DNA from: a virus
IMG/VR virus record: IMGVR_UViG_3300046522_000745
Coordinates: 1-23,213 of that record
DNA: 23,213 nt
Strand: one strand, 5' to 3'
Positions 2,750 through 19,840 of this stretch are shown here, in pieces. The notes below the pieces were generated by a model. It searched no databases, was not told where the DNA came from, and worked only from the letters and a program-made list of their open reading frames with translations. Every line of letters begins with the position of its first letter. The stretch's first letter is position 1. The translations under genes were made by a program, and so were the position numbers.

Positions 2750-3055
2750 TCAGGTGACGGTCGCGCTTGATTCAGGTTCGCTGGGGGGACCATCGTCATT
2801 GGCTGCGCGATCGTTCGCGGCTTCGCGCCACGTCGTCATCGGCAGCTTGTGGAGGGGAGCCGGGAACCGGCTTTGCCGTGTGGTTCGTATTGCCGTCATT
2901 TCCACCACGAAGACATGGCCGCACGCATCCGGGTTGCGGCATGCGTAGTAGAGTTCGCGAAACAGTAGACTTTTCTTCCCGACCGTCTGAGCAAATGCGC
3001 GGCCCCCGCAGGCCGGGCAGTTGACGTGAGGGAGCTGCACCCGTGGACCGGACAT
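2750..3055 (-). CDS. ogr: Ogr/Delta-type late gene activator
   Basis: This 101-residue protein matches the P2 Ogr / P4 Delta zinc-finger family. Cys13 and Cys16 (CPAC), then Cys39 and Cys45 (CRNPDAC), give a C-X2-C-X22-C-X5-C layout; P2 Ogr has X2, X22, X4. After the finger comes the family's EMTAIRTTRQSRFP-like stretch. Ogr binds upstream of late promoters and recruits RNA polymerase through its alpha subunit, switching on capsid and tail operons. In P2 the gene follows D. Here it sits inside the early operon, with its ATG sharing one base with the upstream stop (TAATG). The C-terminal ~25 residues are acidic and probably disordered. Confidence 0.88.
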   Translation of the reverse strand: MSGPRVQLPHVNCPACGGRAFAQTVGKKSLLFRELYYACRNPDACGHVFVVEMTAIRTTRQSRFPAPLHKLPMTTWREAANDRAANDDGPPSEPESSATVT

Positions 3056-3546
3056 TACTTCATCACCCCGATATCTCCCCGACCGACCCCATTGCCGGGC
3101 GCAAGTGCTTTCAGACGGCCGATGAGGCGCGCGACGATCGCGTCTGCCTCTTCGGTCTCAAGGATGGCGGCCAGGATCATCGCGGGCGAGGCGCCGGGCG
3201 CGAGGGCCTGAATGCAGCGGCAGACGGCATCGCCTGCTTCACGGGAAAACAGAGCAATGTCTTCAGCAAGGGCGACGCGGCAGGCATTTGCATCCGCCAT
3301 GGCGACTTCCATCTGCCGGGCGAAGCTGTCCGAAATCGGCGCGTAGCCACCACCGGCGGCGAAGTATGCGCGGTCAAGGGCAAGGGCCTGTTCGAGCGTC
3401 GGCGTTCCGCGATTTTCGCTCTCGCTCCAATGTTGCACGGTGCGCTCCGCGCGGCCGGTTATCCGCGCGGCTGCTTTCCAACCGATCAGGTCACCCACCG
3501 TTGTGATCGCCATGGAGAAAGAGACGGGGTCGCGTGGCTTTGTCAT
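3055..3546 (-). CDS. Putative HTH regulator, second early gene
   Basis: With the ATG at 3546, which overlaps the upstream stop (ATGA), this protein has 163 residues. Residues ~15-40 (TVGDLIGWKAAARITGRAER, then TVQHW) look like a helix-turn-helix, followed by a helical body and a Leu/Ala-rich C-terminus. Its position, second in the early operon behind a Cro-like gene, recalls the CII-like or Cox regulators of temperate phages. I cannot assign it to a named family with certainty. A longer in-frame start at 3585 is possible but would overlap the upstream gene more deeply. Confidence 0.68.
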   Translation of the reverse strand: MTKPRDPVSFSMAITTVGDLIGWKAAARITGRAERTVQHWSESENRGTPTLEQALALDRAYFAAGGGYAPISDSFARQMEVAMADANACRVALAEDIALFSREAGDAVCRCIQALAPGASPAMILAAILETEEADAIVARLIGRLKALAPGNGVGRGDIGVMK

Positions 3547-3833
3547 GCCGCGTCCTTCCGTTGCGCTTTTGCCGGACGATCGCAAACGACGGAGGCGGGC
3601 TTGGCCGTTATGGTGGTTGCGACATCCGACGGGCGGCCAAGGGGGAAGACGACATTTTCAGCGGTCAGGGGCAAGCCAGCGGCAAGGCCAGTATCGAGCA
3701 CTTTGGCCTGCTTTTGCGCGGGAATATGGCCCGCACGCTTCCACGCCATGACCTTGCTGGGGCTTTCGTCTAGGGCGCGAGCCATCGGGCGGATGCCGCC
3801 GAACAAGTCGAAAATTGAGGTGATCCGTTCCAT
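3543..3833 (-). CDS. Cro-like HTH regulator, first early gene
   Basis: This 96-residue protein has an N-terminal HTH of the YdaS/Cro-like type (residues ~5-45, IFDLFGGIRPMARALDESPS then KVMAWKRAGHIPAQKQ), a short TAENVVFPLGRP segment, and a basic, variable tail. It is transcribed divergently from the repressor, with 72 bases between the two start codons. It is therefore the natural Cro/Cox-type antagonist at the prophage switch. The ATG at 3833 has no clear Shine-Dalgarno; an in-frame ATG at 3839 is an alternative. A TATTAT box on this strand (3856-3851) overlaps the first operator. Confidence 0.8.
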   Translation of the reverse strand: MERITSIFDLFGGIRPMARALDESPSKVMAWKRAGHIPAQKQAKVLDTGLAAGLPLTAENVVFPLGRPSDVATTITAKPASVVCDRPAKAQRKDAA

Positions 3834-3838
3834 GACCA

Positions 3839-3854
3839 TTATTGTGCAAAATAA
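3839..3854. promoter_or_regulatory. Operator dyad O1 at the prophage switch
   Basis: TTATTGTGCAAAATAA is a 16-base palindrome with one mismatched pair, directly upstream of the Cro-like start. It contains the decamer TTGTGCAAAA, which recurs exactly at 3889-3898. A leftward TATTAT -10 candidate overlaps it, so protein bound here would be expected to block the early operon. Which regulator binds is not shown. Confidence 0.6.
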
Positions 3855-3876
3855 TAACACAAACAGCAAGCCTTAA

Positions 3877-3905
3877 TTTGCGCATACGTTGTGCAAAAAT
3901 TTTGC
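3877..3905. promoter_or_regulatory. Operator dyads O2/O3 abutting the repressor start
   Basis: TTTGCGCA at 3877-3884 and TGTGCAAA at 3890-3897 form an inverted repeat (7 of 8 pairs, 5-base spacer). GCAAAA-A-TTTTGC at 3893-3905 is a second, perfect 6-base dyad that ends right before the ATG of the repressor. The second copy of TTGTGCAAAA lies within. Binding here could autoregulate the repressor. No Shine-Dalgarno fits between the dyad and the ATG. Confidence 0.55.
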
Positions 3906-4466
3906 ATGGCTAGTTCGGTGACTGTTTCAGTGAATCTTCGCCTCAAAGAGCTGCGGAAATCCGCCAAGCCCGGCCTGACCATTAGAGGCATGGCTGACGC
4001 TTTGGGCATAGGCCATTCACGCTATGCCTATTTCGAAGACCCTAACCGCTTCAAAAAACGAGAACTTCCGCTTGATCTTACCCGTCAGATCGCGGCGGTG
4101 CTTGCTTCGCGGGGTGTCGATCCAGCTGAAGTAATGCTTCTGGCTGGGCTGAAGGGGACTGAAGCTGAGCCAGAGGCTCGCGCGGTGGAAGCGGCACTTC
4201 CACCGATCCAGTACGTGCCTCTGCAAGTCGCGCTGCCTAGTGAAGCAGCGCTGCGGGAGATGTTCCGCGGCCTGCTCGTGCTTGTCCCGGAGGAAGCGAC
4301 GAGGGACGAGACCGCTGAAATTCTAGCTCGATGGCTACCATCTGGTTTCGCAGGAATCGGACCGTATTTGCCCGATCCGGGCGCGGGCACGTTGACTGGA
4401 GCCGGTGCTCTTCTTCCAGCTGCCTCAACAGACGATCTCGAATCGCCGCAATCGTCGCGCACTTGA
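3906..4466 (+). CDS. CI-like prophage repressor (XRE-type HTH)
   Basis: With the ATG at 3906 the protein has 186 residues. Residues ~12-65 form an XRE-like HTH (LRLKELRKSA, then LTIRGMADALGIGHSRYAYF) with the DPAEVMLLAG tail common to this class. A linker and a C-terminal helical region (RDETAEILARWLPSG) follow. There is no LexA/S24-type autocleavage domain, as in P2 rather than lambda repressors, so RecA-driven self-cleavage is not expected. It is the only early gene on the plus strand and faces the Cro-like gene. A GTG at 3891 would add five residues, but the ATG is preferred although neither has a clear ribosome site, so a leaderless or short-leader mRNA is possible. Confidence 0.82.
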   Translation: MASSVTVSVNLRLKELRKSAKPGLTIRGMADALGIGHSRYAYFEDPNRFKKRELPLDLTRQIAAVLASRGVDPAEVMLLAGLKGTEAEPEARAVEAALPPIQYVPLQVALPSEAALREMFRGLLVLVPEEATRDETAEILARWLPSGFAGIGPYLPDPGAGTLTGAGALLPAASTDDLESPQSSRT

Positions 4467-5013
4467 TATTGCACTTCGGACACGCAAACTCGCAGCCCGG
4501 CGTTAGCCGGTACACCTCGCCTTGCACTTTTCCCGCCTTCAAATGTTCCCAATATGTTCTCCTAGTGGCGAAAGGGGGGCGTCTAGGAAAGAGGGAAACG
4601 CAAACGGGGGAAAAATCGCCGGACGGGTGTACAAGCGAGGGTGACATCGACTGGCCGGGTGGGAGGCCGCGATGGCAATGCCTGACTAGATCACTCGAAG
4701 TACCAACACCCTACAAGGTGCAAAATCATTGTGCTCGCAATGCAGCAGCCATCCACCGATTCCTTGGCGGTCACGCCAGATAGCGGAAATGGCTGTCACG
4801 GCAGCAACGCGCCCATTCCGGTCATCTGACGCGCTGAAGGCGGCTCCTAAAAGCCGTCGTTCGTTCAGGTGATCTCGACGGCTACGACGGTGACCTCTAC
4901 TTGGCTGTACTCAGGGACGCGGCCCGGCTGATCCGCCGCCTCATTCAACCCACAATGATTGGCTGGAGCCGTCAAATAAGTTTCCGACTGAACCCGACGG
5001 CAAACGACCGCGC
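4467..5013. other. Intergenic stretch after repressor
   Basis: No convincing gene was found in these ~550 bases. The SOS box is at 4545-4559. A minus-strand frame from about 4647 to 4237 contains a CPKC/IKC cluster and a helix-like stretch near 4540-4400, but more than half of it is antisense to the repressor. The rest (4600-5013) looks like decayed, non-coding sequence up to the end of the ATPase gene. Confidence 0.45.
4545..4559. promoter_or_regulatory. LexA (SOS) box, GTTC-N7-GTTC
   Basis: GTTCCCAATATGTTC matches the alphaproteobacterial LexA consensus of two GTTC half-sites seven bases apart. On the other strand it reads GAACA-N6-GAACA. It lies 79 bases beyond the repressor stop and well away from any clear start codon. 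It could drive a leftward transcript antisense to the repressor or a short rightward transcript. No good -35/-10 pair could be fixed. Confidence 0.55.
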
Positions 5014-7311
5014 TCAGCTGCAAAGGGTTCTGAGCCGCGCGAGGTGCTTCGGATCGACATGCTCAATCATTTCGAAGAGCTGGGTCGCTGCGCCCCTAGT
5101 CTCCTCTAGAGTCATTGTGGAGAACGACAGCAGGTCATCAATGTTGTCCGAATGGGATTCGACCTGCGCGAGCCGTTCGAGCGCAGCTAGTCGCTCCCGG
5201 TCTAGGTCCGGATAGTCGCTGCATAGCTTGTCGAGCTGGCTGGGCAGTCCACCACCTCCAGGTGCCTTGAATGCGAGGAAGACGTCCAGCACCCGTCGGA
5301 TCACGTTCGGGATCATGTAGCCGTGGTCGTCGTATGCATCGGGCTGGTTCACGAAACGGAACACGTGGTTGAACAGGAAGTGGTATTCGGAATCATATTC
5401 CCTGAGCAGCTTCGACATCTCGACGATCGTCGACGAGCGCCGCTGCTGACCTTCCGGGATCGTGACGTCGATGAACAGGAACGTCGCGGTCTGCGCTTTT
5501 CCCTCGGCGGGCCGCACCTTGCCTTTCCAAGCCTTCCTGAACTCGTTCATGCACTGAAGGTTGTGGGTCAGGATGAACACCTGAGCTGCCTTCTCCAAGC
5601 GAGTGCGCACGAGTGAGCACGCGAAGTTCAAGGCTTTCGTGTCTAGGCTCGAAACGGGATCGTCGACGACGACGATGACGTCCTTGAGCTTCCGGTTGTC
5701 GGCCTCGATCGACGACAGGAAGTAGGAGATTGCGATGGCGGTCTTCTCCCCCTCGCTCGGGACCCCGGAGATGGGCGTGCCGTGCCGCTGCAGCTCGTAG
5801 CCCTCGTCAACGGGGTTGATCGTCAGCTCACCGTGGCCGAGGTACGCGGCGATCAGTTTGTTGATCACGCTGGCCGCCGGGCCATGGGTCCGTATCCGCT
5901 GGCGCAGCTCGCGGGCCTGCTCCCGCACAGCCGCGAGGGCATCGGTCGCCACTGTTAGCTTACCGGTTGAATCCGCCATTTCCTTCGCCGACTTCGCGTA
6001 GTCAACGCGGCAGTCGATGATGAAGTGGCGTCGGATAGAGGTCTCGGCGGCCTCCTTGCGCTTCGTGAAGTCGGCGACGGCCTGGTTGTGTGCGGCGATG
6101 GCATCGTTGCAGCTGCCCACCTGCGCGGCCAGTCGTTCGGCGGTGGCAAGGACATCTGCCTCCACCGCGGCGCCCTGCATGTCGGCCGGGGTCGCCGGAC
6201 GCTCGCGCTTGGCGGTGAGCACCGTCTGCAGGGTGCCGAGTTGCTTGACGAGCTGGCCTAACTCCTTCGAGGCGCCCTCGCGCGCATCCTTGAACCCAGC
6301 TCGCAGTTCGGTCGTGAGCTCGTCGGATGCGGGCAGCTGGGAAGCCAGCTGGGTCGTCGTCTCGATGAGCTTTTCCAGTCGGTCCGCCGTCGTCGTCAGG
6401 CGGGCGACGAACTGGTCGACGCTGTCATCCAGGGCGGCGGCCAGCAGCGCCCGTCGTTCCGGGGAGATAGGGGCGCCGCAGTGGATGCAGACGGCGACGC
6501 CGTTCTTCTCGTGATATTCGTGCCCGTGCTTGAGCCAGAGCAGCATGTCGGGATGGCGCTGCACCTCGTCGAGTGCGACCTGCGCCAGTGATAGGCTGCA
6601 GACGTCGGCGATGAAGCGGTAGGCCGTCCCGATAGTCGCCTTGTCGAACGACACCGGTTCGAGGCGGGGCATCGGTTCGTCCAGCCGGCGCGTGTCTTCG
6701 GCGGCCTTCAGCTCGTCGTCGGTGAGCGGTGCCCCTTGGTCGTCCTTCCAGGTCTCGTAGTCCTTCGCGAACGCGGGCGCCTCGTACTTGCGGCTGCCGA
6801 GATGCAAGCGGGACGCGACGGACTTTGCGCGCTCCCGCTTGAAGTTGGTGAAGGTCTTTTCGGCGGCTCCCTGGGCCGCCGAAGCCACCTCCTTCCTAGC
6901 CCCCGCCTTGACGATCTCGCCCTCGATTCGGGTGAGTTCGGCGGCGGCTTCGGCCTGGTCGGTGCCAATGTAAAATACAGGCTTGGCGCGTCCGGCAGAC
7001 CACTGAAGGTTTTGCTCGATGTAGTCCGAGTTGAACACCAGCAGGCGCTGCTCGAGTCCAGCGGGATTGGTCGGGCAGCCGAAAGCCGACCCGTCATCCA
7101 TCTCCACCTCGAACGAGCCGCCCTCGGGAAGTTTCGGGTGCGAAGCCCCCGCCTCGAGGCTCGCAAACACGCGCGACAACGTGCTCTTCCCGGATCCGTT
7201 GAAGCCGTAGACCAAGTTAAAGCGCCGGAACTGCAGCGAGGGCGACCTAGCTCCCCGGTCGGCGTAAATCCCGATGCTCTGCAGCGATTTGATGTTTGTG
7301 ATGATCCCCAT
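5014..7311 (-). CDS. RloC/PrrC-like AAA_13 ATPase, probable anticodon-nuclease defence protein
   Basis: This is a 765-residue ABC-type ATPase of the AAA_13 family. The Walker A is GFNGSGKS (36-43), the signature is PSEGEKTA (518-525), the Walker B is VIVVVDDPVSSLD (545-557), and the switch His is in ILTHN (580-584). Between them, helical coiled-coil arms flank a CIHC zinc-knuckle (275-278), like the Rad50-type hook of RloC. After the ATPase head come SEYHFLF (641-647), NVIRRVLDVFL (669-679) and VESH (717-720). In PrrC and RloC this region carries the Arg-Glu-His tRNA-cutting triad. Candidates here are Arg672, Asp676 (Asp where Glu is usual) and His720. The role as a phage-defence tRNA nuclease is inferred. 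It stands alone on its strand, back to back with the Septu-like pair. Confidence 0.82.
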   Translation of the reverse strand: MGIITNIKSLQSIGIYADRGARSPSLQFRRFNLVYGFNGSGKSTLSRVFASLEAGASHPKLPEGGSFEVEMDDGSAFGCPTNPAGLEQRLLVFNSDYIEQNLQWSAGRAKPVFYIGTDQAEAAAELTRIEGEIVKAGARKEVASAAQGAAEKTFTNFKRERAKSVASRLHLGSRKYEAPAFAKDYETWKDDQGAPLTDDELKAAEDTRRLDEPMPRLEPVSFDKATIGTAYRFIADVCSLSLAQVALDEVQRHPDMLLWLKHGHEYHEKNGVAVCIHCGAPISPERRALLAAALDDSVDQFVARLTTTADRLEKLIETTTQLASQLPASDELTTELRAGFKDAREGASKELGQLVKQLGTLQTVLTAKRERPATPADMQGAAVEADVLATAERLAAQVGSCNDAIAAHNQAVADFTKRKEAAETSIRRHFIIDCRVDYAKSAKEMADSTGKLTVATDALAAVREQARELRQRIRTHGPAASVINKLIAAYLGHGELTINPVDEGYELQRHGTPISGVPSEGEKTAIAISYFLSSIEADNRKLKDVIVVVDDPVSSLDTKALNFACSLVRTRLEKAAQVFILTHNLQCMNEFRKAWKGKVRPAEGKAQTATFLFIDVTIPEGQQRRSSTIVEMSKLLREYDSEYHFLFNHVFRFVNQPDAYDDHGYMIPNVIRRVLDVFLAFKAPGGGGLPSQLDKLCSDYPDLDRERLAALERLAQVESHSDNIDDLLSFSTMTLEETRGAATQLFEMIEHVDPKHLARLRTLCS

Positions 7312-7759
7312 CGCCGGAGTTCATTCTGCGTCCATGCGTTTGTCAACTTCCGTGTTGGCCCATCGCCTTTCTACCTGCAAAAGGAGGGGGCGGCCGCGTG
7401 TCAAAGGAGCTGTGGCGACGTCTGCTATGCGATAACTGGGACACGGAAACTGCCAGACAACAACCGGCCGAAGGGCGCTCGGCAGGTTGAGGCGTGAGAT
7501 GCTCAGCGGCTTTGCGCCCTTTTCGGTCAGTGCAGCGATCTGATCGCGACTTCGACGGTCGCCGTTCGTTGACCGGTAAACGGACCCACAGCAAGCACCG
7601 GACTTCAGGGGGCTTTGCTGCCGAGCAGCTTACCGCCAACAGATCTGGGTAACAATATCCAGTGAGATATTGCGGCACGTCCATTGACTATGGAATACGT
7701 TGGTCGTCGCAAACCCGCTACGACACGAACATCACGCAGGTGGGGCATCTGGGGGAATA
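7312..7759. other. Divergent intergenic region between two defence loci
   Basis: About 450 bases with no credible gene; the open frames here lack protein-like composition. Promoters for both the leftward ATPase gene and the rightward ptuA-like gene should lie here. A perfect dyad, CAATATC-N6-GATATTG, sits at 7653-7672, about 88 bases before the ptuA start. A TTGACT at 7684-7689 is a -35 candidate with only a weak -10. Confidence 0.5.
7653..7672. promoter_or_regulatory. Dyad upstream of the Septu-like operon
   Basis: CAATATC and GATATTG are perfect 7-base arms around a 6-base spacer, in an AT-rich island. The site precedes a TTGACT -35 candidate (7684) of the ptuA-like gene. The arrangement would suit an operator or activator site. 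No regulator gene sits next to it. Confidence 0.4.
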
Positions 7760-9274
7760 ATGTCAGGGTTCAGGCTTCTACGTGCTGCAGGCACATTTGA
7801 ATTGCGCAATCAGCGTGTGGCGCGCGGAGAACGTGAGCCGAACAATGGCCGCCTCGAAGTCGAATTTTCGCCGCCTGTTAACCACGGATCCGAGTCTTGG
7901 GTATCTGTGCTAATCGGGCGTAATGGTGTCGGTAAAAGCCGGCTGCTGGCAGGTATTGCAGACGTCTTCGACAGGATCGACGAGGAGCGAGGCTTCATTT
8001 CGCGCGAGACCCTATCGGTTTCACTTATCGAGTACATGTGCGAGGGGCGGCACGTCGTCCTCAAGCTCAACGAGCGCGATGTCGTATCTGCCACTTGCGA
8101 CGGTCAGAAATGTTCGCCGAGCGACTTGCCGCTTCCCGGCAAGATCATCGCGCTGACGACGACGCCGTTCGACAAGTTCCGTATCTCGCGATCGGCGCAG
8201 CGCCTGCCTGATCGGCCCGTCCAGCCGGAGGGCCGCTACACGTATCTCGGATTGCGTGACCGATCGGGGCGTGCTTCCACGACCGCGACGATCTTCCGCG
8301 CTCTCGAGGGCTTGTTCGAGGCGTCGAAGGGCAGCGACGAGCGGCGGCTCCGGATCGCTGACATCTTCGCCTTTCTCGGATACGAGCCTCGTGTCGAGGT
8401 GCATTATCGTTTCCGTGTCTCCGAGCGTACTCGAATCCAACAGCTCATCGAAGGCGCTTCGATCGAGGAAGTCATCAGTCCCTATGAGACTAGGCCATCG
8501 AGCCGTGGCCTGGGGCGTTTCAGAGATGACCCGGAAGCGATCGAACTCATCCGCAAGGTCGGGCGGGAGGTTAACCGGCGCGGAGTCCTACAATCCTTTA
8601 CTCTCCAGGCCGACTTTCTGGGCTGGTCGGACGACGACATGTTTTTCCGGGACGTGCAGCAATTGCGCCGGCTCGGGATTGTGGAGATGACCGCAGTCGA
8701 GGTCCAGCGGCAAGAGGACGGAACAATCCTAGATCTCCGCCACGCAAGCTCCGGCGAGCTGGGTATCGTCACGGGCTTTCTCGGTTTGGCGTCAGCAATC
8801 CGCGACAACAGCCTCGTATTCATCGATGAGCCGGAGATCAGCCTGCATCCCGAATGGCAGACCCGCTATGTCGATCTCCTCACTAAAACTTTTGCGCATT
8901 TCCGCGGCTGCCATTTTATTCTCGCTACCCACTCCCCGCTCATCCTTTCAGACATCGGAGCTAGATCTTCGAGTGTGATTTCACTCGACTCAGACCGTCG
9001 GCGTGCCGAAAGTGCAGTCGCTTTCGCTGGCAAGTCCTACGACTATCTCCTCGCAACCGCATTCGAGGAACCGGGGAATAACAATCTGTTTGTGAAGGAA
9101 GAGATTATCCGCGCGTTGCGGCTTGCCGCCGATGGGAAAAGCCAGTCACCAGAGTTCATCGAACTGCTTGGCTGGCTCACAACGATCAAGTCGAACCTCC
9201 AGAACGACAGCCCAATCGTGGAACTCATCGAGGAACTTCAGGAAGCGGCGAAGTTTCGGGGCGACCGCTCATGA
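7760..9274 (+). CDS. ptuA: Septu-like ATPase (PtuA type)
   Basis: This 504-residue protein has an OLD/SMC-type ATP-binding head: Walker A GRNGVGKS (53-60), signature SSGEL (330-334), Walker B LVFIDEPEISLHP (352-364) and the switch His in LATHSP (388-393). The middle section (~130-320) is specific to this group and not recognised in detail. I chose the ATG at 7760 because GGGGG lies five bases upstream; a TTG at 7700 is unlikely. The stop overlaps the next start (ATGA), which joins it to an HNH nuclease, the two-gene plan of Septu (PtuA-PtuB). In that system the ATPase forms a complex that restrains or triggers the nuclease on infection. Assignment to Septu rests on motifs and gene order. Related ATPase-HNH pairs exist. 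Confidence 0.82.
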   Translation: MSGFRLLRAAGTFELRNQRVARGEREPNNGRLEVEFSPPVNHGSESWVSVLIGRNGVGKSRLLAGIADVFDRIDEERGFISRETLSVSLIEYMCEGRHVVLKLNERDVVSATCDGQKCSPSDLPLPGKIIALTTTPFDKFRISRSAQRLPDRPVQPEGRYTYLGLRDRSGRASTTATIFRALEGLFEASKGSDERRLRIADIFAFLGYEPRVEVHYRFRVSERTRIQQLIEGASIEEVISPYETRPSSRGLGRFRDDPEAIELIRKVGREVNRRGVLQSFTLQADFLGWSDDDMFFRDVQQLRRLGIVEMTAVEVQRQEDGTILDLRHASSGELGIVTGFLGLASAIRDNSLVFIDEPEISLHPEWQTRYVDLLTKTFAHFRGCHFILATHSPLILSDIGARSSSVISLDSDRRRAESAVAFAGKSYDYLLATAFEEPGNNNLFVKEEIIRALRLAADGKSQSPEFIELLGWLTTIKSNLQNDSPIVELIEELQEAAKFRGDRS

Positions 9275-9903
9275 TCACCGCCACCGTCGCTTATAATGGA
9301 GAGGATCGCGGTTTAGTAGAGGCTTTTGACGGCCTCCGGCGTGACGCGAAGAAAGGCGACTACTGGTCCGACGAGGCTCTTACGGCACTCAAATCTCGAG
9401 TGAAGACTCACTATATCGCGGCTCAAAGATATCGCTGTTGCTATTGCGACCGCCACCGGCCGACCGACAATCATCGCGAGTGGGATGTCGAGCATGTTGC
9501 CGACCGAAGTAAATATCCCTGGTTCATGTTCACCCCACGGAACCTTGCCGCAGCATGTCCTGAATGCAATGGCGCTAAGCAGGCTCAAGAGACGCTAACC
9601 AGCGTAGGCCGCAAGACATATCCGGAAAAGTCGGACGGGTTCAGAATTGTTCACCCCCATTTTGATAACTATACAGATCATATTTTCCGCAAGGGCATGG
9701 TCTATTTGCCCAAGACTGCCAAGGGTCGGAAAACGATCTACATGTGTAATCTTCTTCGGTTCGCCGAGAAACATATCGACTGGACAAATGAAGCAACAGA
9801 TCTGCGTTTCGAAGCCGAGGTCGATGCTGTGTTTGAGGGAGGGGGGGCCGTTGCTCAAGCGGCGGTCGAAACCATCATCGCGCGGCTACCAATCCCCGAT
9901 TGA
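9271..9903 (+). CDS. ptuB: HNH endonuclease (PtuB type)
   Basis: This 210-residue protein has a zinc-bound HNH fold. CCYC (56-59) and CPEC (96-99) are the two metal knuckles. His75 in DVEHVADRS is the catalytic HNH histidine, Asn91 lies in TPRNLA, and Asn100 and Lys103 follow the second knuckle. The N-terminal ~50 residues and the C-terminal half, including the HPHFDNY segment, match the general architecture of the nuclease partner in Septu and some retron systems. The ATG overlaps the ptuA stop by four bases, so the two proteins are probably made in fixed ratio. The coding sequence is visibly less GC-rich than the tail genes, suggesting recent acquisition. No reverse transcriptase is nearby, so this is not a retron-linked copy. 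Confidence 0.85.
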   Translation: MITATVAYNGEDRGLVEAFDGLRRDAKKGDYWSDEALTALKSRVKTHYIAAQRYRCCYCDRHRPTDNHREWDVEHVADRSKYPWFMFTPRNLAAACPECNGAKQAQETLTSVGRKTYPEKSDGFRIVHPHFDNYTDHIFRKGMVYLPKTAKGRKTIYMCNLLRFAEKHIDWTNEATDLRFEAEVDAVFEGGGAVAQAAVETIIARLPIPD

Positions 9904-10133
9904 TCTACAAAGATTAGTGATTTTCTAGCTGAGGTGTGGCGATTCGTGCGCAGATGGTTGCTGCTTCGATAGGCTTGGCTAATCAAAACGAGATCCCATC
10001 CACAGCCACGATCCGGCCCCGGCAGCATCTCGTTCAAACCGAGCGAGCGGCGGTCCGATCGTCGGCTCTGCCGCCATCTGCGTCCGCAACCTGCCAGTCC
10101 GCAATCGGCCAAAAGACGCCATAAGAGTGCTTC
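9904..10133. other. Intergenic region after the Septu-like pair
   Basis: No gene is supported here on either strand. The open frames have biased composition and no ribosome site. No strong terminator was found after the HNH gene. Confidence 0.4.
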
Positions 10134-10340
10134 GTGGAACATAGGTATCAGGCGCAGGTTCTGAAACCTAGTTCGCCGAACCCGATGAACCTGATGCGCC
10201 GGCGCCCGATCCTGAGCCGGATTTTTATCCGGACGAGATTTGGCCGGACGACTGACGCAAGCATGATGCTGATCCCGCTAGCCTTTGGTTTGCTGCTCGC
10301 GGGCACGCTGGTGCTCATCATATCGCTCAAGAACAGGTAA
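10134..10340 (+). CDS. Doubtful small membrane protein
   Basis: This frame of 68 codons starts at GTG (in-frame ATGs at 10185 and 10263 are alternatives). The only notable feature is a strongly hydrophobic C-terminus, MMLIPLAFGLLLAGTLVLII, which could span the membrane. The N-terminal part is basic and not clearly protein-like. It lies alone between the defence genes and a convergent small gene. It may be spurious. Confidence 0.28.
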   Translation: MEHRYQAQVLKPSSPNPMNLMRRRPILSRIFIRTRFGRTTDASMMLIPLAFGLLLAGTLVLIISLKNR

Positions 10341-10362
10341 CAAAACCAGCGAACGCCGTCGC

Positions 10363-10560
10363 TCAGTGCTTGGTCAAGCCGTTATCTAAAATAAAGCCAA
10401 CTGTGTTTCGGATAAGCAGCCACTTGGCGAGTTCCTCGACACGATCTGTCCTTTGCAGCGCCTCAATTTGCGCATTCAGCACAATGCCGACTTCATCGCC
10501 GTGTTCCGCGATCTGTTCCAACGCGATGCGTAGGCATTCTTGATCGTCTGGGATCTGCAT
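10363..10560 (-). CDS. Small hypothetical protein next to late operon end
   Basis: This 65-residue acidic protein is predicted helical throughout (ECLRIALEQIAEHGDEVGIV, then ALQRTDRVEELAKWLLIRNT). It is unrecognised. It lies 43 bases downstream of D on the same strand, separated by a strong hairpin, so it probably has its own promoter or depends on read-through. Its base composition is lower in GC than the tail genes, which fits it being part of the cargo block rather than the tail module. Confidence 0.5.
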   Translation of the reverse strand: MQIPDDQECLRIALEQIAEHGDEVGIVLNAQIEALQRTDRVEELAKWLLIRNTVGFILDNGLTKH

Positions 10561-10577
10561 CGGCGGATCATAGCAAA

Positions 10578-10600
10578 CGGCATTGGCGCAGCCAATGCCG
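10578..10600 (-). terminator. Hairpin after the tail operon
   Basis: CGGCATTGGC and GCCAATGCCG are perfect 10-base arms around a 3-base loop, four bases past the stop of D. On the minus strand the stem is followed by GTTTGCTAT, a poor but T-containing tract. This is the best terminator candidate for the late tail transcript. The same symmetry would also work weakly for rightward transcription. Confidence 0.6.
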
Positions 10601-10603
10601 GTA

Positions 10604-11617
10604 TTAGACGGGCGCGAGTTCCATCCTAAGGTCGGTCCGGAACCCGCCGCCCTTGTCCAGGCGGTGGGTCACCTCAGAAACCAGCCACGTCGTGCCGTCG
10701 ATTGCCGGCTTGAAGCCTGCCACCTCGGCGCGAGCTTCAGGGTAGGCATCGGGTCGGCCGAGCGCGAGCGTCATGTCAAACGTAGCAGGTGCGCGCGTCA
10801 GGCGGGCGGTTTCCGCCGCCGCCGCGCGCTTTGCCGAAGCTTCGTCCGAATACACCTTGCGCAGCTTCTTGGCGCCCTCGGCCTTGCCGATGGTCACCGG
10901 CTTATGCTTCGCGGCCTTCTTGTCGCGCCAGACGGCGGTCACGCCTTCTTGCCCGTCCCGCTTCTGGCGCTGCCAGCTATGCCGGTCGCCGGCGCGGCGC
11001 TGAATAGTGAGGCCGGGGAGCGCGACGCCGGTGCTGGTCTGCCCGGCGCCCTTCGGCGCAAAGATCAGGTGCTTGTCCTTGATCGTCGCGACAGCATCAT
11101 TTTCCCGCCCGAGGCGGCGCAGGAACGCGATGTCGCTCTCGCGGCTCTGAGTGACCGTGGGTACCGCGATCGATGCCAGAGCAGGCGCAATGCGAGCGGT
11201 AAGGCCATTGCGGCCAGCGACGTCCTGGAGCACGGCGCCGAGGGTCGTGTTGTTCCAGCTGTGCGCCCGCCGGTTGCGGATCGCGCTGGTGAAGTCTGCC
11301 GCGCGGGCGCGGATAGTGATCTGATCGGGCGGGCCGCTGTGGGTGACGTCGTCGACCTTGAAGCTGCCCTTGTCGATCAGCCCGGGCGTCACGTCGCGGC
11401 CCTGCAGCCAGCCCAGCTGCAGGCGCAGCACCGCGCCCTCGGGCGGGATTGCCAGCATGCCATCATGATCGCTCAGGACGATGTCCAGCTGATCGGCTTC
11501 GTCCCCGCGCTTCTCCGACAGGGTGAGCGAGACAAGCCTGGCGCGTATGCGGTCGGACAGATCGACGCCGTCCATCGTGACACGCCAGTCGGCGATGTTG
11601 TTGACCGCGTAAGTCAT
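10604..11617 (-). CDS. D: Tail protein gpD (late control gene D family)
   Basis: This 337-residue member of the P2 gpD family is the baseplate-hub/tail-tip protein, structurally related to T4 gp27, that sits between tube and spike. The N-terminus (MTYAVNNIADWRVTMDGVDL, then SDRIRARLVSL) and the segment SRESDIAFLRRLGRENDAVA are typical of the family, as is the C-terminal TTWLVSEVTHRLD. It is the last gene of the tail operon and overlaps U by four bases (ATGA). In P2, ogr follows D. Here a hairpin and then cargo genes follow. Confidence 0.93.
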   Translation of the reverse strand: MTYAVNNIADWRVTMDGVDLSDRIRARLVSLTLSEKRGDEADQLDIVLSDHDGMLAIPPEGAVLRLQLGWLQGRDVTPGLIDKGSFKVDDVTHSGPPDQITIRARAADFTSAIRNRRAHSWNNTTLGAVLQDVAGRNGLTARIAPALASIAVPTVTQSRESDIAFLRRLGRENDAVATIKDKHLIFAPKGAGQTSTGVALPGLTIQRRAGDRHSWQRQKRDGQEGVTAVWRDKKAAKHKPVTIGKAEGAKKLRKVYSDEASAKRAAAAETARLTRAPATFDMTLALGRPDAYPEARAEVAGFKPAIDGTTWLVSEVTHRLDKGGGFRTDLRMELAPV

Positions 11618-18758: not shown

Positions 18759-19025
18759 ATGGCGCACCATCTAGCGCGTTACTTTCTATCATGCGGTCAT
18801 ACGGCCGATGTGCCAGCGACAATGGCTGATGTTAAAAGCCCAATCGTCTGCCGGAAATGCTCGGCGCCAACCGAAATCCCATCTGAAGTTCTCGATCTCG
18901 TGCGTGTACCTCCATCGGATCCAGCTTGCGAGGCACCCGCAGTGTCCATTGAGGGCTCGATCGCTGCCGGCCCCGGCAGCTGTGATGGCTACCGGGGCAG
19001 GGACACGAGTTGCCGTGAGCGTTAG
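18759..19025 (+). CDS. Small Cys-rich hypothetical protein (88 aa)
   Basis: This 88-residue protein carries SCGH (residues 11-14) and CRKC (31-34), a plausible metal-binding set. An Ile/Val-rich stretch and a Gly/Ser-rich, probably disordered tail follow. A GAGGGGAT ribosome site and a promoter-like region precede the ATG. Its stop overlaps the stop of the convergent methyltransferase by four bases. The last third of the gene contains two mutually exclusive GC hairpins (18963-18980, and 18970-18976 with 18992-18998). These may act as a terminator, or mean that the true protein is shorter. Unrecognised. Confidence 0.5.
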   Translation: MAHHLARYFLSCGHTADVPATMADVKSPIVCRKCSAPTEIPSEVLDLVRVPPSDPACEAPAVSIEGSIAAGPGSCDGYRGRDTSCRER

Positions 19026-19840
19026 TTGTCGTTCGCGGGCAACGCGAAGTTGCTGATTAGCACTTCGCGGGCGGGCCTGGACTTGGTGCCAATCGTGTAC
19101 GTCGTGTCGATCGCCGCGATGGCGAAGCGGGCAAACGTCTCCCGCACCCCCTCATTGTCATTCAGCGAGATCAGGAACTTGCCCTTGATGCCGGCCAGCT
19201 GGTCGGCGAGCGCGGCGAAGTCCTCGCGGCCGAAGACGTCTTTCCCGTAATCCGTCTCGCACGCCCAATAAGGGGGATCGAGGTAGAACAGCGCGCCCTC
19301 GCGGTCATAGCGCCGGATGAAGTCAGCATAGGGCAGGCGCTCGATCACGACGGATTGCAGGCGATCATGGAGATCCGCCAGCATCGGTTCCAGCTTGCCG
19401 ACGTCGAAGCGCGCCGGGCCGGCCGCATCCACACCGAAGGTCCGGCTTTTCACCCGGCCGCCGAACGCCAGACGCTGGACGTAGAGGAAGCGTACCGCGC
19501 GCTGCAGGTCGGTCAGCCGATCGGGATCCTGCGCGAGCAGCCGCTCGAACTCGGCGCGGCTCGCGACGCGGAAGCGCAGCATGTCGACGAGGTAGGGGTA
19601 GTGCTCGGCGAGGCAGCGGAACAGGGTGACGACGTCGCCCGAGATATCGTTGATAGCCTCGGCGCGCGGCCGGCTCCTGCGGCGCAGGAAGATGCCGCCC
19701 ATGCCGACGAATGGCTCGGCATAGCTGGTGTGCGCGGTGCGCTCGATGATGGCGCAGATGCGCTTCGCCAAGTTGCGTTTTCCGCCGATGTAGCCGGCGA
19801 CGGGAGAGGTTGGGGAAACGAGAACAAAAGGGGTAGACAT
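19022..19840 (-). CDS. D12-class DNA adenine N6-methyltransferase (Dam-like)
   Basis: This 272-residue Dam/T4Dam-type methyltransferase has GYIGGKRNLAKRI (16-28) at the N-terminus, the SAM-binding EPFVGMGGIF (42-51), IND (63-65), and the catalytic DPPYW motif (188-192, alpha-class order). The FLYVQRLAFGG segment (118-128) is also typical. It would methylate adenine in a short sequence, probably to protect phage DNA from host restriction. The site cannot be told from sequence alone. An AGGAAA ribosome site precedes the ATG. No partner restriction endonuclease is adjacent, so it is an orphan methyltransferase. It is placed between fibre genes and the V-D tail run. Confidence 0.92.
   Translation of the reverse strand: MSTPFVLVSPTSPVAGYIGGKRNLAKRICAIIERTAHTSYAEPFVGMGGIFLRRRSRPRAEAINDISGDVVTLFRCLAEHYPYLVDMLRFRVASRAEFERLLAQDPDRLTDLQRAVRFLYVQRLAFGGRVKSRTFGVDAAGPARFDVGKLEPMLADLHDRLQSVVIERLPYADFIRRYDREGALFYLDPPYWACETDYGKDVFGREDFAALADQLAGIKGKFLISLNDNEGVRETFARFAIAAIDTTYTIGTKSRPAREVLISNFALPANDN

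Follow-up and report, generated by a model that had tools for sequence, protein, structure and literature searches.

Defence hotspots are already known as a kind of prophage locus, and those of P2 and P4 include, in E. coli P2, a site flanked by gpA and gpQ beside cos and, in the Vibrio P2-related phages K139/PhiO18P, one between cI and int (Rousset et al. 2022, PMC9122126). In the open-access literature, which leaves most subscription journals outside, we found no description of a hotspot between gene D and the repressor, or of any such hotspot in sphingomonads. Two families of defence proteins are relevant to the locus described here. RloC is a Rad50-like split ATPase of 658–897 aa that carries the triad R692-E696-H737 and a CxxC zinc hook, while PrrC is shorter (341–416 aa), has neither coiled coil nor hook, and is linked to a type I restriction-modification enzyme (PMC2610378). 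Published PtuAB systems cleave tRNA-Tyr (PMC13096335, PMC11555353), and PMC11555353 mentions another Septu as cleaving nicked phage DNA.

The phage backbone and the position of ogr

The window, i.e., the whole stretch of DNA analysed, is the 23,213-base record IMGVR_UViG_3300046522_000745, from a P2-like prophage of a sphingomonad-type host. It encodes an integrase, a GapR-like protein, gpD, Ogr, sheath, tape measure, gpW and gpV; the homologues of gpD, gpV, gpW, sheath and Ogr are Peduoviridae-type marks. Its relatives are prophages in Novosphingobium, Sphingobium, Sphingomonas and their neighbours. The backbone features that frame the locus are:

2750..3055, minus strand: Ogr/Delta late-gene activator (PF04606, E = 1.6e-11), within the early operon, not after D
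3543..3869, minus strand: Cro-like regulator (weak Pfam P22_Cro match), first gene of the early operon
3891..4466, plus strand: HTH protein, presumed phage repressor (weak Pfam HTH match, conserved position, divergent orientation), left boundary of the proposed hotspot
about 4516..10106, no strand: variable (cargo) segment, its edges set by resumed homology, on the left to the relative L003 and on the right to the relative L002
10107..10603, no strand: flank behind D with a small shared ORF, matched by L002 at 100% identity over 498 bp
10578..10600, minus strand: terminator-like hairpin (10-bp stem, T-rich tail) directly after D, where the late tail operon is predicted to end
10604..11617, minus strand: gene D (baseplate hub), which is conserved and bounds the proposed hotspot on the right

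According to the original prediction, a P2-like prophage carries two defence loci in its D-repressor interval, and both are present there as intact open reading frames. Since a strong terminator-like hairpin lies right behind D, late transcripts probably end short of the cargo. The further suggestion that the cargo had replaced ogr after D was wrong, as the Ogr_Delta gene belongs to the early operon. Where the contigs of sphingomonad relatives extend that far, nearly all of them run from D through the variable interval to repressor, cro, p3055 and ogr, with gapR coming next in most cases. Outside this clade, ogr directly follows D in two Pantoea loci (L126, L128) and lies close behind D in a Brevundimonas locus (L091), so the sphingomonad clade either relocated ogr or lost and regained it. 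Loss or replacement of ogr by cargo was ruled out, because nearly all close relatives keep ogr in the early operon whatever cargo they carry; its position is thus unrelated to any particular cargo.

Two other parts of the backbone also vary. The place of the repressor (window 3891-4466; L006, L010, L070 and others) is held by two unrelated types of repressor-like protein, window-like in some relatives and of a ~220-aa XRE type in 27 intervals, which indicates that the immunity region itself is swapped beside the cargo. Inside the tail module, a Dam-type (D12) adenine methyltransferase (window 19022-19840) is 82–91% identical in many relatives, and its distance to gene V ranges from ~0.1 to 1.9 kb among them, making this a possible second plastic site.

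The RloC-like ATPase and the Septu pair

Between the boundaries, the window carries two divergently oriented modules:

5014..7311, minus strand: AAA_13 ATPase of 765 aa (Pfam AAA_13, E = 7e-171; PADLOC PDC-S06, E = 2e-151)
7312..7759, no strand: divergent intergenic region of 448 bp, with 7366 as the last position homologous to the nearest relative of the ATPase
7760..9274, plus strand: PtuA, SMC-type ATPase of a Septu system (PADLOC PtuA, 8e-98)
9271..9903, plus strand: PtuB, HNH nuclease of Septu (PADLOC PtuB, 2e-61)

The first gene had been proposed to encode a RloC/PrrC-like ATPase, and the architecture of RloC was borne out by its Rad50-like head, zinc hook, R672 and H720. The protein contains a Walker A motif (residues 36-43), the hook cysteines C275/C278, an SEGE signature (519-522) and a Walker B motif (D550/D551), with long helices predicted at 117-475, in the stretch that separates Walker A from the signature, and its C-terminal part carries R672-x3-D676 and H720. 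C275/C278, R672, S719 and H720 are invariant in all 28 aligned sequences, while position 676 is Asp in the subclade of the window (4/28) and Glu in the remaining 24. The structural model (pLDDT 83) has a Rad50/SMC head, a long coiled coil and an all-helical C-terminus. Structure-search rows span residues 1-643 only, and no HEPN fold occurred among these matches, which hardly cover residues 644-765. A full-length profile alignment with PrrC (probability 97.5) placed R672, D676 and H720 opposite the R-x3-E and SH of PrrC; the PADLOC PrrC model matched at only 8e-8, and the C-terminal domain alone gave no significant match to PrrC. A PDB sequence search with the ATPase returned no match, and the isolated phage records gave one weak match only.

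By published features, rather than by comparison with tested RloC sequences, the protein resembles RloC in its length, which falls within the range of 658–897 aa, in an ABC/Rad50 head interrupted by a coiled coil that bears a CxxC hook, and in the C-terminal R...H of the anticodon-nuclease triad. It differs from both RloC and PrrC in having Asp where these have the catalytic Glu. It is related to PrrC in its ATPase and its triad spacing, and it departs from PrrC in its 765 aa, its zinc hook and the absence of hsd genes among the annotated neighbours. Its function is probably RloC-like, with the catalytic step predicted from sequence. Elsewhere, fragments of the ATPase adjoin a restriction endonuclease on a Bradyrhizobium plasmid (L140), and a 586-aa chimeric ATPase ORF lies beside integrase-like sequence in a sphingomonad genome (L152).

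The second module, predicted to be a Septu-like PtuA-PtuB pair, was identified by PADLOC as a complete Septu pair. PtuA probably starts at the ATG at 7760, the TTG at 7700 merely lengthening the frame; the PADLOC match spans residues 64-518 of that longer frame. As in Septu, an SMC-type ATPase is followed by an overlapping HNH gene (4 bp shared by ptuA and ptuB), and the Walker and HNH residues are kept. Close relatives of PtuA all keep Walker A (53-60), the SSGE signature, D356/E357 and H391, bar the variable last E of the signature. PtuB retains E74-H75, N91, C56/C59 and C96/C99, of which E74-H75 and N91 are invariant among five aligned sequences; a PDB sequence search with PtuB gave no match. 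For the AlphaFold model of PtuA (pLDDT 78), the best 17 structure-search rows were all PtuA chains (Z 15.5–18.3), with the next family, SMC heads, at 14.4. The fold is like that of PtuA from the retrons Ec83 and Ec78 (Z ~18 over ~347 residues, rmsd ~5.2) and from Septu 8eea/8ee4 (Z ~16), whereas sequence identity is about 15–20% to the solved PtuA proteins and 37–41% to the nearest rhizobial and sphingomonad copies. In contrast to a type I-A retron, no RT-like protein was found among the interval genes by translation and family matches, and the window contained no Rfam match and no tRNA.

Variation of the interval and its cargo among relatives

Related loci were collected via D or the repressor in viral contigs and genomes, and D, repressor, cro, p3055, ogr and gapR were placed by profiles. 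After removal of duplicates, 68 unique intervals remained, 65 of which, mostly sphingomonad and including that of the window, ended at cro. In relatives reaching the early operon the bounds are conserved, with D on one side and repressor/cro on the other. The length from D to cro ranged from 1188 to 8045 bp with a standard deviation of 1632 (n = 65), compared with 128 for p3055 to ogr. The distance from ogr to gapR was likewise variable (standard deviation 1188), so the D-repressor interval is not the sole plastic place. Turnover of its content is evident among close relatives: 13 of 19 phage pairs with a 90–95% identical 1.6-kb U-D backbone had less than 30% of the interval DNA in common. L002 is 95% identical to the window across 2.9 kb and diverges abruptly at window position 10106 into a PHP/AAA-type gene of 990 aa, which matches the Ppl model in part and occupies the place of PtuAB. 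At the opposite edge, the window is homologous to L003 again at 4515, just beyond the repressor.

Smaller traces were observed as well. A match of 23–42 bp at window 10207-10251 to the end of a ~138-aa gene that neighbours a 220-aa repressor in L006, L010 and L073 is possibly a leftover of earlier content. In other P2-like viral contigs, an AAA ATPase gene follows D at a short distance (L252) or comes behind D-ogr (L270), a hint that the place behind D accepts cargo more widely.

Gene calls in the relatives were mechanical, and the PADLOC or Pfam scans covered about 25 of the longer ORFs in the cargo. The genes found include PtuAB of another subfamily (L077, from Sphingobium sp. 15-1), a KAP NTPase of type PDC-S20 (L012), PDC-M60A (L047), a DRT reverse transcriptase (L045, E = 3e-169), a type II methyltransferase with a restriction enzyme (L050), PDC-M41A (L003), TIR (L039), GHKL ATPases (L025, L026), an HsdR_N domain (L103) and a Dam-type methylase with DndB (L037). 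Other cargo is not defence-like, namely glycosyltransferases in L031 and rhamnan-synthesis genes in L083, and L062 carries large proteins without a match. Overall, about ten larger-cargo intervals had distinct defence-type PADLOC or Pfam matches, a figure that is a plain count made at this site alone. Cargo ORFs of at least 200 aa lay mostly on the strand of the repressor (69 versus 22), a count that may include some unrecognised repressors. The D-repressor content is thus highly variable among related prophages and often of defence type, and with respect to a P2-type hotspot the original prediction held.

Three large cargo genes had no PADLOC match: two in L062, encoding 798 aa (8266-10662) and 436 aa (6483-7793), and one of 780 aa in L050 (13696-16038). 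The 798-aa and 780-aa genes were also without a Pfam match, and all three are candidates for unknown systems.

Relation of the two modules and competing explanations

It had also been suggested that the two modules share a promoter region and may act together; this part was not supported. No sigma-70-like site was found in 7312..7759, and a promoter scan gave 2 sites against 1.6 expected, so there was no evidence of a promoter. The nearest relative of the ATPase (G390/L151; 86% identical in protein, 83% in DNA) matches the window only at 4819-7366, i.e., the gene with short flanks, the match ending 55 bp upstream of the start codon, and adjoins a 977-aa gene that is a relaxase by appearance. 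Among 398 Sphingomonadales genomes, relatives of the ATPase occurred in eight and window-type PtuA in one, without overlap. In viral contigs, protein searches with single sequences recovered no relatives, for which alignments were needed. None of 74 viral ATPase-family loci had PtuA or PtuB within ~6 kb, none of five viral PtuAB pairs had the ATPase beside them, and the plasmid copies are likewise separate, so that the check for joint occurrence yielded zero cases. Window-type PtuA at E<=1e-60 was found in none of 385 alphaproteobacterial genomes, a scan of low power for co-occurrence. Given the lack of co-occurrence and the end of ATPase homology 55 bp upstream of the gene, the gap is best seen as the place where two modules, acquired independently, were joined.

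These counts bear directly on the idea that the ATPase and PtuAB are parts of a single composite system under shared control, for example with one armed once the other is inhibited, as PrrC guards its restriction enzyme. The genes are adjacent, divergent and 448 bp apart, both families have tRNA-targeting members (PMC2610378; PMC13096335), and PrrC-type guards have been linked to other nucleases (PMC3710099); set against the viral loci, the non-overlapping genomes and the abrupt end of the closest ATPase DNA, we consider such a system very improbable. We give equally little credence to a layered pair, in which both modules would hit translation through tRNA, coordinated by the shared gap, and an invader bypassing one, e.g., by bringing tRNA, would meet the other. 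Relatives fill the slot with many other anti-phage genes, which argues for a hotspot rather than a joint two-part system. The interval could instead be a general accessory-gene (moron) site without defence bias, in which defence genes are a chance part of the cargo. The glycosyltransferase, rhamnan-synthesis and other non-defence genes, together with many short ORFs without assignment, would fit this, whereas the different kinds of defence-type match in about ten larger-cargo intervals make it unlikely.

A separate question concerns the ATPase itself, which might be a PDC-S06-type DNA-repair or DNA-sensing protein rather than a tRNase, its C-terminal domain having another activity. The Glu-to-Asp change at the triad position, the lack of a significant match between the isolated C-terminal domain and PrrC, and structural matches confined to residues 1-643 point in this direction, while the invariant zinc hook and the invariance of R672, S719 and H720 in the columns of the R and SH of PrrC speak against it; on balance we regard a non-tRNase as a minority possibility, to be taken more seriously than the alternatives above.

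We favour the reading that the D-repressor interval is, in all likelihood, a defence-gene hotspot of Sphingomonadaceae P2-like phages, in which two independent modules would here guard the lysogen. Expressed from the silent prophage, they would counter superinfecting phages via abortive infection or nuclease attack, with tRNA or DNA as the presumptive target. The Rad50-like head and zinc-hook coiled coil of the RloC-like ATPase, thought to sense DNA damage or ends, may then release a C-terminal PrrC-type tRNA anticodon nuclease, and the PtuA ATPase would scaffold and control the HNH nuclease PtuB. The ATPase offers a clean case for asking whether tRNA cleavage survives an Asp in the triad of a RloC-like enzyme, and the slot is a defined place to mine for new systems, given the 798-aa and 780-aa genes without family match beside known ones.

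The reading would extend P2-type defence hotspots to Sphingomonadaceae. Like the P2/P4 hotspots, the interval is a small variable segment between conserved P2-like genes that holds diverse anti-phage systems, often more than one; unlike them, it has D and the repressor on either side and belongs to Sphingomonadaceae phages whose ogr is in the early operon.
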